From a virus, in the IMG/VR virus record IMGVR_UViG_3300001472_002929, positions 1 to 21,725 of that record: DNA of 21,725 bases; one strand, 5' to 3'. Both the position numbers and the translations under genes were made by a program. Below the pieces are notes generated by a model, which saw only the letters and a list, made by a program, of their open reading frames with translations, was not told the origin of the DNA and did not search any database. This document shows, piece by piece, positions 8,139 through 12,783 of this stretch; position 1 is the first letter of the stretch; each line of letters starts with the position of its first letter.

Positions 8139-8984
8139 ATGACATTTGATAATAAAAGAACTTTCGGAGTAGAGATTGAGTTTATTGGTAACAATAATCA
8201 AAGGGTTACTTTAGAAGAAATTAATCAGTACCTTGCTAATCATAGTGCTGATTTCAGAATGCACACTGCTTACTACAGTGATACTAACGCTACTATATGG
8301 AGATTAAAAACTGATTCTTCTGTTAGTGGTAGTGGTTACGGTCTAGAAGTCGTTTCACCAGTACTTAAAGGTGATAAGGGTTATCAAGACTTAATGCTTG
8401 TTATGGATGCTATCAACAACACAGGTGCTACTATAAATAGAACTTGTGGATTGCATGTTCATGTAGGTGTAAGTGATTGGAGAATCAAACATTTTAGAAA
8501 TCTTTTCAAAAGATATACTAAGTTTGAACAAGCTATTGATAGTGTTATGCCAATTTCTAGAAGAAGTTCACACAATGACTACTGTCGTTCAACAGCAAGA
8601 TGTTTTTCATACAATGCAAGTCTTAGTAATGCATTTGATGTAATAGATGGTATGAGAAGTGCTAGACAAATATCTAATCATATAGGTACTAGATACACAA
8701 AATTAAATATAGATTCTTTTTGGAAACATGGAACTATTGAATTTAGACATCATGCAGGTACAACTGACAAAGATAAGATCGCCAACTGGTTAAAGTTAGT
8801 TATGACTATGGTACAAGCAGCTGACCAAATGAGAAGTGTAAAGGTTAAATCAGATGATACTTTTACAGATTACACAAACAAGTTTAGTTTAATGATTAAA
8901 GGATTAGGACAAGTACAAGATACTTTAATTGACGCAACTACTAAAAGATTTTTCACAAAGAGAAGGAGAGAATTATGCAGTTAG
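8139..8984 (+). CDS. Amidoligase-family enzyme (COOH-NH2 ligase, glutamine-synthetase fold)
   Basis: Members of this family (PF12224) are predicted to form amide bonds between a carboxylate and an amine at the cost of ATP, making peptide tags or small metabolites. The family marks are clear: FGVEIEFIG at residues 9-17, LEVVSPVL at ~69-76, CGLHVHVG at 103-110, TRYTKLNI near 184-191, and TIEFRHHAGT at 199-208. These supply the Glu, His and Arg residues expected to bind metal and ATP. Length (281) is typical. It has its own promoter and a strong AGGAG site, and overlaps the next gene by 10 bases. Two genes downstream is a gamma-glutamylcyclotransferase-like protein, a pairing described for amidoligases by Iyer and colleagues. 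The phage substrate is unknown. Confidence 0.9.
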   Translation: MTFDNKRTFGVEIEFIGNNNQRVTLEEINQYLANHSADFRMHTAYYSDTNATIWRLKTDSSVSGSGYGLEVVSPVLKGDKGYQDLMLVMDAINNTGATINRTCGLHVHVGVSDWRIKHFRNLFKRYTKFEQAIDSVMPISRRSSHNDYCRSTARCFSYNASLSNAFDVIDGMRSARQISNHIGTRYTKLNIDSFWKHGTIEFRHHAGTTDKDKIANWLKLVMTMVQAADQMRSVKVKSDDTFTDYTNKFSLMIKGLGQVQDTLIDATTKRFFTKRRRELCS

Positions 8985-9208
8985 AATATACAGTAAAAGG
9001 TGGTGGAATCCTTAGAGGTTTCACCAAAGAAGATATAGCTTATTCACTATACGAGTTATCACTAGCACCAAGTTGTTGTTTTCAAGACTGGTTACAAGAT
9101 ACAGCTATACGAATCAATACACAGTTTGGTTATGTTATTAGATACCAATACCCACATCATTTTGTAGATGACCTTGCTAGACATGGTCTTATTATGAGGA
9201 GTGTGTAA
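8975..9208 (+). CDS. Small unknown protein between amidoligase and cyclotransferase genes
   Basis: This 77-residue protein is not recognised. It starts inside the amidoligase gene after an excellent AGAAGGAG site and its TAA overlaps the following ATG (TAATG), so all three genes are translationally linked. It contains a Gly-rich start (KGGGILRG), a Cys pair (APSCCFQDWL) and an aromatic C-terminal half (FGYVIRYQYPHH). No signal or membrane segment is seen. Because it is locked between an amide-forming and an amide-cleaving enzyme, it could be an accessory subunit or even the modified protein; that is inference from position alone. Confidence 0.75.
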   Translation: MQLEYTVKGGGILRGFTKEDIAYSLYELSLAPSCCFQDWLQDTAIRINTQFGYVIRYQYPHHFVDDLARHGLIMRSV

Positions 9209-9678
9209 TGTTTTACTTTGCTTATGGTGCTAACCTTAATATAGAAAATATGAAATATAGATGCCCTAATGCTAAACCGATTGTTAAGTTTAGTATGCCT
9301 AACTATAAATTAGTTTTTAAAGGTGTTGCTGATATTGAATACAGTCTTAATGATTCTGTAGAGGGTGTACTTTGGGATATTACTGATACATGCGAACAAG
9401 CATTAGATGTCTTTGAAGGTTATCCATACCTTTATCGTAAAGAATATTTTACTGTAAAGATGGGTGGAACACTTGCAGAAGATTTTGGAGACAATACAGA
9501 TGTAATGTTTTATGCAATGAATAGAACTGATTATGGTGAACCTAATCTAAGTTATTTTAATTGTATTCTTGATGGTTATGTTGCTAACAAACTAGATACA
9601 GATTTTCTATATGATGCACTTCTCCATGCACAAGAAAATCATTCAGTATATAAATACGAATCTAAGTCTTGGAAGTAA
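9208..9678 (+). CDS. Gamma-glutamylcyclotransferase-like (GGCT/AIG2) protein
   Basis: This fold cleaves gamma-glutamyl-amines or peptides by cyclising the glutamyl group to 5-oxoproline. The substrate-binding motif YGANL is at residues 6-10, followed by NMKYRCP. The likely catalytic acid is Glu70 in LDVFEGYP, the counterpart of the family's conserved Glu. Length (156) is standard. GAGGAG precedes the start, which overlaps the upstream stop. With the amidoligase, it forms a probable make-and-release pair, so it may trim or recycle the amidoligase product or protect against a host peptide. The gene ends directly at a hairpin that separates it from the convergent minus-strand genes. Confidence 0.88.
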   Translation: MFYFAYGANLNIENMKYRCPNAKPIVKFSMPNYKLVFKGVADIEYSLNDSVEGVLWDITDTCEQALDVFEGYPYLYRKEYFTVKMGGTLAEDFGDNTDVMFYAMNRTDYGEPNLSYFNCILDGYVANKLDTDFLYDALLHAQENHSVYKYESKSWK

Positions 9679-9680
9679 CT

Positions 9681-9715
9681 TTAGTGGGTGTGGTTAAGTA
9701 GACTACACCCATTAA
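9681..9715. terminator. Bidirectional hairpin between convergent operons
   Basis: GGGTGTGG at 9686-9693 pairs with CTACACCC at 9703-9710 around a 9-base loop, with one G-T pair. Flanking bases extend the stem to about 13 pairs, reaching into the stop codon of the minus-strand IbrB-like gene. There is no long T tract on either side, so it may be a weak or factor-assisted terminator. Its position, exactly between two convergent gene ends 33 bases apart, is the main support. Confidence 0.65.
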
Positions 9716-10248
9716 TCAAACTCCCTACCTTCTACATCAGGAACCCAACCTTTAGTAAATTCTTCTTGTGAACCTTTTTCAGTCATAGGTTGATAATCAT
9801 AAAGTCTATCTATTTCCTCTTGTTCCATGCCTAATAAATCTTTAAGTTGTTTATCTGTATAGTTATGACCTTCTTTCATTTTCCTAACAATCCCAGTCAT
9901 TGGTAAAATTCCATGATTACCTCTTGCTCTGTTATGAATTATAGTGGCACACATTTGTTGTGCTTCATCTACCATTTCATCTAAAAATACTACAGGAACA
10001 TAACCATTCGTGAGATCAGAAATGTCTGTGTCTCCTGACACTGTCCATCTATGAAAGCCATCAACTATTTCATATGTGCTTCTTACTACTATTGGTTGTG
10101 TCCACCCACATAATTTAATGCTTGTTTTAAGAAGTTCTAATTCTACTGGTGCTACTTTGTTTGGGTTATAGTCATTTGCTTTTAGCTTTGACCTTTTGAC
10201 CCATTTCATAGCGTTGATGGGTTGATTATCTTTACCTTTTTGTACCAT
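9712..10248 (-). CDS. IbrB-like protein with ParB/Srx nuclease-type domain
   Basis: The N-terminal half is a ParB/sulfiredoxin-fold domain: VKRSKLKANDYNPNKVA at ~17-33, then a LLKTSIKLCGWTQPIVV segment, and IVDGFHRWTVSG at ~61-72 with the GFHR nucleotide-binding motif. A helical C-terminal part (~100-165) resembles the ParB helix-turn-helix region (GMEQEEIDRLYDYQP). The size (178) and the pairing with an upstream PAPS-reductase-like gene match E. coli IbrB/IbrA (YbdM/YbdN). It overlaps the ibrA-like gene by 17 bases and has GAGGT upstream of its ATG. The biochemical activity of the IbrA/IbrB pair is not established to my knowledge; related folds act as nucleases, NTPases or kinases. Confidence 0.82.
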   Translation of the reverse strand: MVQKGKDNQPINAMKWVKRSKLKANDYNPNKVAPVELELLKTSIKLCGWTQPIVVRSTYEIVDGFHRWTVSGDTDISDLTNGYVPVVFLDEMVDEAQQMCATIIHNRARGNHGILPMTGIVRKMKEGHNYTDKQLKDLLGMEQEEIDRLYDYQPMTEKGSQEEFTKGWVPDVEGREFD

Positions 10249-11446
10249 GTCTTTCTACCTCATATGCTTTCTTTTGTGCTGCATATTGTTTTTTATTATT
10301 AGTAAACATTGGTTGTTTACGACCTTTAAAATCACCACGCATAGCAATACGCAATAAAAACTTCCAACCAATACCTGATTCAGGGTGATGTGTTCCCATC
10401 ATAGGCTCTGATGTTTTTTTAAAATGATTACCAACAAAATCATTTATAACTTGTGCAATTTTAGACCGATAGGGTTCAGGATGCTTATTTAAAAAGTACT
10501 GTATAAATTCTTCCCATGAGGTATCTTTTGGTTTTTCAGGAAGTCCACCAAAAGCATAAAGTTCAGTGTTTGCGTATCTTGCTGCTGTTGCTGCACCAGG
10601 CACCCTGCTTTGCATTTTATCCCACAACTTAGGAAATGCTATGCTGTATTGCCATAACCCACGCATTGGTTCTTCACCATATGGGGGTGCACACCTTTGT
10701 TGTAAATGAGTTAATCCAACTTTTTCTAATATGTCGTATGTTATGTTGTAATCCCAACCATATTTTTTTGGTGCACTCCATACATCAACTGTTTTCATGT
10801 CGTAAATAGGACAAACTTTGACACAATTAGCTAAAGCAGTTTTTGATTTAAGATTAATCATATAATCCTCATACCTTTTTTCACTGGTTTGTAAAATAGT
10901 TCTATATCGCATTAAACTTTCTTCTGACCTTATGCCCATAATAATACCCACTTCACCCCAGTCTTGTGGTGGAAACAACAAACCATTACATTCAGGAACA
11001 GTAGGTCTTTCTTCTATTTTTTTTGGGAAGTTTGGAATATCTTCTAAACCAACAACACTTTTATGTGTAGGATATGGTCTACACCATTTATCTCTGTCTT
11101 CAGGTGCCCATGGCCACCAATGTGGGTGATTGCGACTACAACCATTTCTATGTTTGACTGGTAGACACAACCAATTCATTTTGATCTCAGGAAGATTAGC
11201 AACTCGTTCTACATAATCTATTGTTTCGTATGGAATTGCTTCTTCATCAAAAAAGTAAACATGAAGAGGTAGTTTGTTTCTTTTTTTTGCAACTTCTAAA
11301 GTCATATTTAAACAAACAGTAGAGTCTTTACCACCACTAAACATAACTACAACATTATCAAAAATATCATATGTTCTATTAATTCGTTCTAAAGCTAAAG
11401 TATAGACATCTTTCTGTATATCTCGTTTTTTTGCTATTTTTGACAT
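10232..11446 (-). CDS. IbrA-like PAPS-reductase-family protein (PP-loop ATP pyrophosphatase)
   Basis: The protein carries the PP-loop VVMFSGGKDSTVCL at ~33-46, which in PAPS reductases, DndC and tRNA-thiolating enzymes binds ATP or PAPS and activates a substrate. HVYFFDEEAIP follows at ~62-72. Two Cys/His/Trp-rich stretches (HRNGCSRNHPHWWPW and DKWCRPYPTHK) and a later CVKVCP pair could bind metal or zinc. A region at ~180-195 (EVGIIMGIRSEESLMRYRT) matches the family's second conserved block. The 404-residue length and the IbrB-like partner fit the IbrA/YbdN subgroup (DUF3440-type). The ATG has AGAAGG upstream. Possible roles include sulfur-dependent nucleic acid modification or control of host genes; both are inference. 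Confidence 0.86.
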   Translation of the reverse strand: MSKIAKKRDIQKDVYTLALERINRTYDIFDNVVVMFSGGKDSTVCLNMTLEVAKKRNKLPLHVYFFDEEAIPYETIDYVERVANLPEIKMNWLCLPVKHRNGCSRNHPHWWPWAPEDRDKWCRPYPTHKSVVGLEDIPNFPKKIEERPTVPECNGLLFPPQDWGEVGIIMGIRSEESLMRYRTILQTSEKRYEDYMINLKSKTALANCVKVCPIYDMKTVDVWSAPKKYGWDYNITYDILEKVGLTHLQQRCAPPYGEEPMRGLWQYSIAFPKLWDKMQSRVPGAATAARYANTELYAFGGLPEKPKDTSWEEFIQYFLNKHPEPYRSKIAQVINDFVGNHFKKTSEPMMGTHHPESGIGWKFLLRIAMRGDFKGRKQPMFTNNKKQYAAQKKAYEVERHGTKR

Positions 11447-11461
11447 AAATTAACCTTCTCT

Positions 11462-11497
11462 AAGGCTTGTGAGTAGCTTCTTTAATTATAGTTAATA
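11462..11497. promoter_or_regulatory. Second copy of the GCTTCT/TATAG element upstream of ibrA-like gene
   Basis: This 60-bp gap carries AAGGCTTGTGAG and TAGCTTCTTT (11474-11483), then TATAG and TTAA, in the same order as in the gap at 3006-3048. On the minus strand it reads TTAAC, TATAAT (11490-11485) and AAAGAAGCTA, so a promoter for the IbrA/IbrB-like pair is possible, although no convincing -35 is visible. Confidence 0.4.
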
Positions 11498-11506
11498 CCC
11501 TAGAAC

Positions 11507-12205
11507 CTACCCTTTTCCATGATTTATATAGGTTCTGTTCAACATTGGGTGGTTTGTATCGCTTGGACCAAAGTCTGAATCAGGGTGGTATGCAATTATA
11601 TCCATATAATTTTCACTAGTTCTAAAACTATGCACTTCACCTTCTTCTAAACAAAACATCATACCTTTTGATAAATCTTCTTCCCAGCCACTTCTCTTGC
11701 CTTCAGGTTTTTGAAATGCTTCACCTTTACCGCCTATCACAATACCCATTCTAATGCTTGGGTGTAAATGTTGTGTTTGGTCTATTCCCATAGGAAAATG
11801 TAAATAGTTTAAACATGGGTCTCCTAATCTTGGTGGCATTACTAACAATGAATCAGTACAACCATCAATGTATGACAATCTTCCACTTTTTTCTGAAGCA
11901 CCGACCATATCTATACCATTAAAACCATAACGAACAATCCAAAACATTTGAGAGTCATCTTCTTGCATAAATGCTTCTGTCATTTCATTAGGGTTAGTTT
12001 TTAAAGTAAAGAAATCACCTTTTTTAACATTCCATTCTCTATTGCCTGTATCAATAGCAAAAGAACCTGTTGTTACAAAACCATAAATGTTACCTACAGT
12101 TGGTTCTAAGTCATAATTATCAGATATAGATATCATTTTTGTTGGATACATAGATTCAACTTGGTCTATTATTTCACCATGCGTAGGATTCGGTATTAGT
12201 ATCAT
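11507..12205 (-). CDS. Cupin-fold protein of unknown substrate
   Basis: The C-terminal half has a cupin metal site: HLHPSIRMGIVIGGKGEAF at ~146-164 (His146, His148 and Glu162) and GMMFCLEEGEVHSF at 181-194 (His192). The N-terminal half (about 37-90) has a degenerate beta barrel (GFVTTGSFAI and KKGDFFTLKT), so this may be a bicupin with one active site. Cupins act as dioxygenases, isomerases, epimerases or small-molecule binders, and sequence alone does not decide. GAGGAAA precedes the ATG, which overlaps the upstream ParB-like stop by four bases. Its place between a ParB-like protein and a PAPS-reductase-like protein suggests a metabolic or modification step in the same pathway. Confidence 0.82.
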   Translation of the reverse strand: MILIPNPTHGEIIDQVESMYPTKMISISDNYDLEPTVGNIYGFVTTGSFAIDTGNREWNVKKGDFFTLKTNPNEMTEAFMQEDDSQMFWIVRYGFNGIDMVGASEKSGRLSYIDGCTDSLLVMPPRLGDPCLNYLHFPMGIDQTQHLHPSIRMGIVIGGKGEAFQKPEGKRSGWEEDLSKGMMFCLEEGEVHSFRTSENYMDIIAYHPDSDFGPSDTNHPMLNRTYINHGKG

Positions 12206-12783
12206 TTTTTTTTCCTCAATAAATATAACAATGCGTTATTTTTTGTTTGCAAGTCATTTTGATCTCTTGCAGTTTCTAAGATTTTTGTTACCTCTTCTCT
12301 ATCTTCTTTTTCAAGATAAAATGTCAAAGGAACTGTAGTTGTTAAATCATTTGCATTGTAGCCAACCTGTGCTTCATCTATCTTAACATCAGCAAAAGCT
12401 GTGTCAAAAGGTCGGAACTCAATTTCAGTAGGTTTAAAACCAGCAACATCAATACCTTGTAGTTTTTCTAATTCAAGTTCTAAAATTTTATCTTCCCAAA
12501 CAGTAAGTTCTCCAACTTTATTATCAGCTAATCTGTATGCGTTTATATTTATCTCGTTATCGTCATATATTTTACAAGGCACTTTATCAATACCTAATTT
12601 TTTAGCTGCTAAAAGTCTTGTATGACCTGCAACAATAACATTATTTTCATCTATAACTATTGCTTGTTGAAATCCATGTTTGTGTAATGATTTTGCAACT
12701 TCATCAATTGCACTTTCTGAAATTACTCTAGGGTTTTGAAAGTAAGGAACTATATCTTCAGTCTTTTTGTATAAAATATCCAT
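12202..12783 (-). CDS. ParB/Srx-domain protein (methyltransferase-associated type, without the methyltransferase)
   Basis: Residues ~1-95 form a ParB N-terminal-like domain: the IVPYFQNPRVIS start, DEVAKSLHKHGFQQAIVI, then VIVAGHTRLLAAKKLG (GHTR at 53-56, the nucleotide-binding motif) and INAYRLADNKV. In many phages and prophages this form is fused to a DNA methyltransferase; here the protein ends after a ~100-residue C-terminal region without such a domain. That region (~100-193) is poorly conserved by eye and ends in a basic tail. It opens the minus-strand cluster with the cupin, IbrA-like and IbrB-like proteins and is distinct from the second ParB protein. No ribosome site is visible before the ATG. 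Confidence 0.85.
   Translation of the reverse strand: MDILYKKTEDIVPYFQNPRVISESAIDEVAKSLHKHGFQQAIVIDENNVIVAGHTRLLAAKKLGIDKVPCKIYDDNEININAYRLADNKVGELTVWEDKILELELEKLQGIDVAGFKPTEIEFRPFDTAFADVKIDEAQVGYNANDLTTTVPLTFYLEKEDREEVTKILETARDQNDLQTKNNALLYLLRKKK

Follow-up and report, generated by a model that had tools for sequence, protein, structure and literature searches.

What do the genes called IbrA and IbrB do in phages, where they are common and usually labelled, without known chemistry, as sulfur-metabolism genes or prophage coactivators? Here, we address this question at a locus of IMG/VR virus record IMGVR_UViG_3300001472_002929 (the window; a marine phage record of 21,725 bases, 32% G+C), in which four genes lie on the minus strand in the order ParB1, cupin, IbrA, and IbrB. 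An earlier sequence-only reading had suggested that they might form a sulfur- or phosphate-based modification system. Our comparisons support a genuine functional link among these genes: they occur together in many very different viruses, as the core of an apparently undescribed system. We tentatively favor an ATP-dependent chemical modification system in which IbrA would adenylate its substrate and an organic group would be attached, with phage DNA or nucleotides as the most likely target and protection as the purpose.

A conserved four-gene cassette

The open reading frames lie exactly where the sequence-only reading had placed them, with two ParB-fold genes flanking the cupin and IbrA genes on one strand: ParB1 at 12202-12783 (193 amino acids, aa), the cupin at 11507-12205 (232 aa), IbrA at 10232-11446 (404 aa), and IbrB at 9712-10248 (178 aa). 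The overlaps it had described in two gene pairs measure 4 base pairs (bp) for ParB1/cupin and 17 bp for IbrA/IbrB, and a gap of 60 bp separates the cupin from IbrA. The evidence on this cassette is all drawn from metagenomes or genomes in which genes were called mechanically. About two dozen IMG/VR contigs are syntenic (replication protein, primase-helicase, ParB1, cupin, IbrA, and IbrB, followed by convergent GGACT and amidoligase genes and then terminase), with protein identities to the window of 94-97% at the top and ~50-70% at the bottom. Synonymous divergence (dS) of the cassette genes of relatives from the window was mostly ~0.7-1.6, near saturation, and the nonsynonymous-to-synonymous ratio (dN/dS) was low for all four genes (e.g., 0.02-0.2 for the cupin) and similar to that of terminase. 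Among distant relatives, the cassette genes were under tighter dN/dS constraint than primase-helicase, and all four are, by these measures, under strong purifying selection.

To place the cassette among IbrA genes at large, we used a profile-guided scan with diverse IbrA sequences, which gave 80 viral loci (the most window-like in a ranking of at least 344), and a tree of 84 representatives less than 75% identical, built by a quick method. The tree splits in two at a branch with a Shimodaira-Hasegawa-like approximate likelihood-ratio (SH-aLRT) value of 99, separating clade I, the classical IbrA (E. coli, Streptococcus, and Gaia phages), from clade II, which holds the IbrA of the window. Gene content was counted only at loci fetched via IbrA rather than via the cupin, less than 75% identical, and with at least 1.5 kilobases (kb) of flank on each side. 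Among 25 such loci in clade II, IbrB was present in all 25, ParB1 in 22, and a cupin in 21 (16 of the window type and five others). The sequence-only reading had counted the lack of a conserved link of the cupin and first ParB gene with IbrA/IbrB among its refuting conditions; the link is in fact conserved, with all four genes together in 19 of the 25. The 27 clade I loci likewise all carry IbrB, which thus accompanies IbrA in 52 of 52, whereas only two have ParB1 and two have a cupin, both of the ectoine-synthase type. Fisher tests gave p-values of 2e-8 and 3e-9 that ignore kinship, and because a pairwise phylogenetic test of cupin versus ParB1 presence had too few independent pairs, these values describe the clade contrast alone.

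Deeply diverged IbrA genes (37-53% identity to the window) keep the four-gene association. The phages concerned have several unrelated terminases, and simple carriage within one phage lineage therefore does not account for the cassette. Given the synteny in about two dozen contigs, the low dN/dS, and this recurrence on other phage backbones, the association is beyond chance. No published account of a cupin-ParB-PAPS-reductase phage cassette was found in a search that most subscription literature lay outside, and its novelty is unproven.

IbrA, IbrB, and ParB1

IbrA has the SGGKDS motif and scores above cut-off for the PAPS_reductase domain (PF01507, E=4e-10, 40.4 bits, cut-off 22.5) and, within 10232-11446, for DUF3440 (PF11922, E=8e-11, 42.5 bits, cut-off 25, half of the profile covered). 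Together with a match to phrog_2302 (E=9e-82), these place it, as had been proposed, in the PP-loop superfamily that includes PAPS reductase and DndC. The PP-loop FSGGKDS (residues 36-42, positions 11321-11341) is invariant across the alignment (Gly38 nearly so), as are GxRxxES and a PxYDxxxxDVW-type pattern (P-x-Y-D...D-x-W). An AlphaFold2 model (predicted local distance difference test score, pLDDT, 89) found its nearest solved folds among APS/PAPS reductases and FAD synthase, then CysD, TilS, NcsA, and LarE, with a best target-normalised template-modelling (TM) score of 0.69 to the PAPS domain of human FAD synthase. This nearest part of the PP-loop superfamily comprises AMP-forming, adenylyl-transfer enzymes.

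IbrB combines a ParB_N fold (PF02195, E=4e-7, 30.4 bits, cut-off 26.3; phrog_2159, E=6e-59) with the motifs DGFHR (residues 63-67, ~10048-10062) and HNRARG (residues 105-110, ~9919-9936) and a gene beside IbrA, which identifies it as IbrB. The motifs are widely kept, with DG[FYE]HR in 171 of 172 IbrB sequences and N[RK]A[RK]G in 168, and an alignment with ParB and Noc puts them where ParB CTPases bind nucleotide. IbrB may therefore bind nucleotide as well, and the suggestion that these ParB-fold proteins could act on NTPs gains from the conservation of NTP-binding motifs in IbrB. The window has the same two proteins, adjacent and overlapping, as the prophage coactivator pair of E. coli ECOR-9 (phrog_2302 and phrog_2159, found in the same hosts in INPHARED in 215 and 221 records), and it differs from the classical pair in that its IbrA falls in a clade of its own, with good support, in which ParB1 and the cupin are added.

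ParB1 (PF02195, E=2.4e-7; phrog_620, E=3e-40) resembles the N-terminal domain of ParB-methyltransferase fusions (phrog_498, ParB-MTase, E=2e-32), adds a conserved C-terminal tail, and carries a GHTR motif (residues 53-56, ~12616-12627). It is not itself a ParB-methyltransferase: the protein has a ParB domain only, with no methyltransferase beside the gene.

An apparently undescribed cupin family

The cupin falls just under the Pfam cut-off for Cupin_2 (E=3.5e-6, 27.1 bits, cut-off 27.2) and has no sequence match in PDB. Its AlphaFold2 model (pLDDT 93) has 309 cupin-type matches in PDB at E<=0.001, and model and alignment together give the double-stranded beta-helix and HxH...H metal site of the cupin superfamily. 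It appears to represent an undescribed bicupin family, encoded in 447 viral stretches, and three different queries found no match to the window type in 50,697 phage records. Among 26 diverse family members, His146, His148, His192, Arg109, Arg152, Cys116, His207, and His219 are invariant; the alignment points to His146, His148, and His192 as a probable three-histidine metal site, with Arg152 in the place of the usual cupin glutamate. Residues 105-231 are almost invariant within the phage family of the window. The reaction could not be read from structure, as the matches in PDB are to bicupins of a generic kind, among them the ureidoglycine aminohydrolase type, quercetin dioxygenase, AerE, and MncA, and do not settle function.

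Away from IbrA, in large phages, the cupin adjoins a 344-381-aa protein of the asparagine-synthetase (AsnB) type with a YSGGIDS PP-loop, usually accompanied by a third protein of ~205 aa. The same trio occurs in Paraburkholderia sp. BCC1886, the cupin of one Myxococcales and one Contendobacter genome has Asn_synthase proteins in its vicinity (Pfam E=6e-70 and 5e-66), and overall three of four bacterial cupin relatives have an AsnB-type PP-loop partner. From these neighbours, the recurrent partner of the cupin is a PP-loop ATP pyrophosphatase. This separate gene group of large phages and one Paraburkholderia genome (L134, 7932-10403; L180, L188, L191, L202, L204, and L206) pairs the cupin family with an AsnB-type PP-loop protein that matches no Pfam family, and several of these loci add the uncharacterised ~205-aa protein.

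An interchangeable slot beside IbrA and IbrB

Three cupin types are linked to IbrA/IbrB, namely the window type, a canonical type, and an ectoine-synthase type, the two minor types being defined by single-sequence searches. The canonical cupin was found in L027 (Pfam E=4e-13), with relatives in L064, L066, L067, L071, and L077. The ectoine-synthase type sits beside IbrB in L131 (E=2e-40) and in the isolate Pseudoalteromonas phage XCL1123, and is fused to IbrB in gp104 of mycobacteriophage Gaia (E=1e-32). At nine clade I loci (L103, L105, L106, L110, L111, L114, L116, L118, and L125), IbrA and IbrB have a GNAT acetyltransferase between them or immediately next to them. Other occupants, each in single clade II lineages, are a sodium:solute symporter (SSF), a TctC solute-binding protein, an aldehyde dehydrogenase, and an additional protein of the PAPS-reductase type. 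That the slot gene works with IbrA/IbrB is suggested most strongly by the IbrB fusion and by the recruitment, more than once, of cupins of different kinds. The cassette thus links a large IbrA clade to ParB1 and to a cupin that is highly conserved and enzyme-like, and the slot beside IbrA/IbrB is interchangeable between small-molecule enzymes.

Other arrangements were seen around IbrA and IbrB. One 160-kb virus record (L064, 3151-7305) carries two tandem IbrA genes, an extra PAPS-reductase-type protein, and a cupin. An uncharacterised family of ~130-140 aa (HTWDKWECYPAG... type) directly precedes IbrA in several clade I phages (L052, 5576-6001; L113; L118; L126; L132; L222, 4664-5062), and a 108-aa reading frame, judged by eye to be SET-domain-like, directly follows IbrB in L022 (6123-6449) and L023 (4039-4365).

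A possible modification system

In the modification system that we tentatively favor, IbrA, as an AMP-forming PP-loop enzyme, would adenylate a substrate oxygen (a base carbonyl or phosphate of DNA or a nucleotide, or else a small-molecule carboxylate), and a small organic group would then displace AMP and be joined to the substrate. The metallo-cupin would make or tailor this group, a part that in other phages could fall to GNAT, the ectoine-synthase-like cupin, or other small-molecule genes. IbrB and ParB1, both of the ParB/Srx fold, would gate the reaction or direct it to its target through binding of nucleotide and DNA, and the modification would guard phage DNA from host nucleases before packaging. 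Adenylation is suggested by the nearest folds of IbrA, which are adenylyl-transfer enzymes (FAD synthase, CysD, APS/PAPS reductase, and TilS), and by its intact PP-loop, GxRxxES, and PxYDxxxxDVW motifs. An organic small molecule is a likelier addition than sulfur because the neighbours are swappable among cupins, GNAT, symporter, TctC, and aldehyde dehydrogenase. Phage DNA is a plausible target: we infer DNA or deoxynucleoside triphosphates (dNTPs) from the two ParB-fold proteins, a terminase large subunit gene no more than 5 kb away in ~32 of 48 clade II loci, the SNF2 helicases that adjoin clade I IbrA, and the precedent of CmoY, and the primase-helicase gene next to the cassette of the window adds to this DNA context.

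Several points weigh against such a system. Enzymes that install a chemical handle (C5-methyltransferase, PF00145, or thymidylate synthase) were found in none of 14 cassette-bearing records, which may be incomplete although several span 40-65 kb, and the known route of base hypermodification is by this token absent. The only reported phenotype of IbrAB is activation of prophage eib genes (Sandt 2002), terminase proximity could reflect a packaging role, and the rarer slot genes (SSF, TctC, and aldehyde dehydrogenase; 1-3 lineages each) could be chance cargo. In agreement with the sequence-only reading, which had seen no methyltransferase at this locus, neither a C5- nor an N6/N4-type DNA methyltransferase was found in 13 of the 14 records, and one, of 160 kb, has an N6/N4 enzyme. 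The PP-loop enzyme TilS offers a close parallel in mechanism: it adenylates an unmodified tRNA base carbonyl, from which an amine displaces AMP, and a TilS-like route would require no methyltransferase or hydroxymethylase handle. We regard as rather doubtful the more specific proposal of a new, handle-free hypermodification of phage DNA or deoxynucleotides, in which a PP-loop enzyme would act on an ordinary base or phosphate under two ParB-fold controllers and with an interchangeable tailoring gene.

Known systems share parts of this design. CmoY is a phage AsnB-type, AMP-forming PP-loop ligase that joins glycine to carboxymethyl-deoxycytidine (carboxymethyl-dC) in DNA, and CmoY-type neighbourhoods hold 1,660 ParB-domain genes (PMC12783734). 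The CmoA/CmoX/CmoY system thus resembles the cassette in combining a PP-loop AMP-forming enzyme with ParB-domain genes in phages, and the cupin family pairs with AsnB-type proteins in large phages. However, the IbrA of the window belongs to the PAPS-reductase/FAD-synthase branch rather than to AsnB, the AsnB-type partners occur only in other phages, and CmoA/X/Y requires a C5-methyltransferase, which was not found in the 14 records. The 7-deazaguanine (Dpd) system likewise uses a ParB-fold ATPase, DpdB, in DNA base modification (PMC12839542), but neither the window nor the neighbourhood syntenic with it showed a transglycosylase or queuosine-type gene, and IbrA is present instead. A link to Rosebush-type 7-deazaguanine phages was dropped, as the matches were other mycobacteriophages and Rosebush was not among the matches listed. 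TilS and FAD synthase have the PP-loop fold of IbrA (structure matches 1ni5, 2e21, and 8rom) and their own adenylation chemistry, though IbrA has no sequence-family membership there.

Alternative explanations

The best-surviving alternative, which we consider unlikely, is a small-molecule system with no DNA target, which would make or destroy a metabolite or nucleotide signal, either for counter-defence or as auxiliary metabolism; the ParB/Srx proteins would then be kinases or NTPases. It fits the small-molecule enzymes and transporters of the slot, the bacterial cupin relatives that lie beside AsnB-type synthetases in apparent metabolite clusters, and the inclusion of the free-serine kinase SbnI/SerK among ParB/Srx proteins, although profile matches are weak. 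Two ParB-fold genes, terminase and replication neighbours, and the SNF2 helicase suit DNA better, and no complete biosynthetic pathway lies alongside the cassette.

A gene-regulation module, in which IbrA and IbrB would be prophage transcriptional coactivators and ParB1 and the cupin ligand-sensing or DNA-binding parts, seems improbable. The published naming from E. coli ECOR-9, the ParB fold, and an AraC-type cupin similarity speak for it. However, the PP-loop and the three-histidine cupin site are both invariant and enzyme-like, interchangeable slot enzymes fit a regulator poorly, and eib activation could itself result from DNA modification.

We give little credence to packaging control, in which the cassette would act on terminase or on the DNA ends, by modification or regulation, so that packaging recognises phage DNA. 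It draws on the frequency of terminase near clade II cassettes and on the B3-type mycobacteriophages. These comprise ~50 near-identical records that have IbrA, IbrB, and a ParB1-like gene, and the beginning of their terminase gene is overlapped by IbrB. Against this, the cassette of the window, which adjoins the primase-helicase gene, and those of its nearest relatives lie inside the replication transcription unit with convergent genes before terminase, and many clade I loci are not near terminase. In Mycobacterium phage Gadjet (L223, 1-4471), IbrB overlaps the terminase large subunit gene and the ParB1-like gene starts the genome. For the favored modification system, the B3-type mycobacteriophages are laboratory phages whose virion DNA could be examined now, and the cassette makes IbrAB function directly testable.

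The sulfur basis of the sequence-only reading was not borne out. IbrA scores far under the cut-offs for the DndC family (TIGR03183, 24.7 bits, cut-off 290.4) and CysH (TIGR00434, 13.7 bits, cut-off 165.1; NF002537, 16.7, cut-off 154), and plain sulfur auxiliary metabolism (cysH) was rejected on these scores. It has no CxxC motif. Neither DndD nor Aminotran_5, the cysteine desulfurase family, was found in the 14 cassette-bearing records, many of them fragments and possibly incomplete, and no desulfurase motif occurs within 6 kb of 84 IbrA loci. Dnd/Ssp/BrxP phosphorothioation does have a PP-loop enzyme of the same superfamily (DndC/SspD/BrxP), and the ParB superfamily is held to include DndB (PMC10853773, PMC12839542), but IbrA lies below the family cut-offs, no DndA or DndD was found in the 14 records, and the cupin is present. 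A Dnd-type system was rejected on the DndC score, DndD, and cysteine desulfurase. For a residue-level comparison with IbrA, four bacterial genomes were searched and none had DndC. That IbrA is a DndC-like sulfurtransferase placing sulfur in the DNA backbone or a base is the least probable explanation. In its favor are a shared superfamily, a local DndC match (E=1e-8, residues 162-224), second PAPS-reductase-type genes in some loci, and host IscS as a potential sulfur donor. Where iron-sulfur cysteines and a cysteine dyad would be expected of DndC, Cys94 and Cys103 are conserved in 37 and 36 of 39 clade II IbrA sequences and could still serve in sulfur chemistry. Clade I enzymes lack Cys103, which is thus not needed by the family as a whole. 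The cassette also argues against the labels PAPS reductase or sulfur auxiliary metabolic gene for IbrA/IbrB.

Neighbouring features in the window

Family scans show that the window belongs to a tailed phage whose head genes (prohead protease, portal, and terminase) are of the HK97 type. Between the convergent IbrB and GGACT genes, a stable hairpin at 9684-9708, not assigned to a strand (minus-strand RNA fold -19.7 kcal/mol, z = -2.96), is probably a transcript-end signal that closes the 3' end of the cassette. On the plus strand at 8139-9678, convergent with the cassette, a second conserved cluster encodes an Amidoligase_2 protein (PF12224, E=1e-39), a 77-aa protein, and a gamma-glutamylcyclotransferase-like GGACT protein, and its synteny is kept across the phage family.

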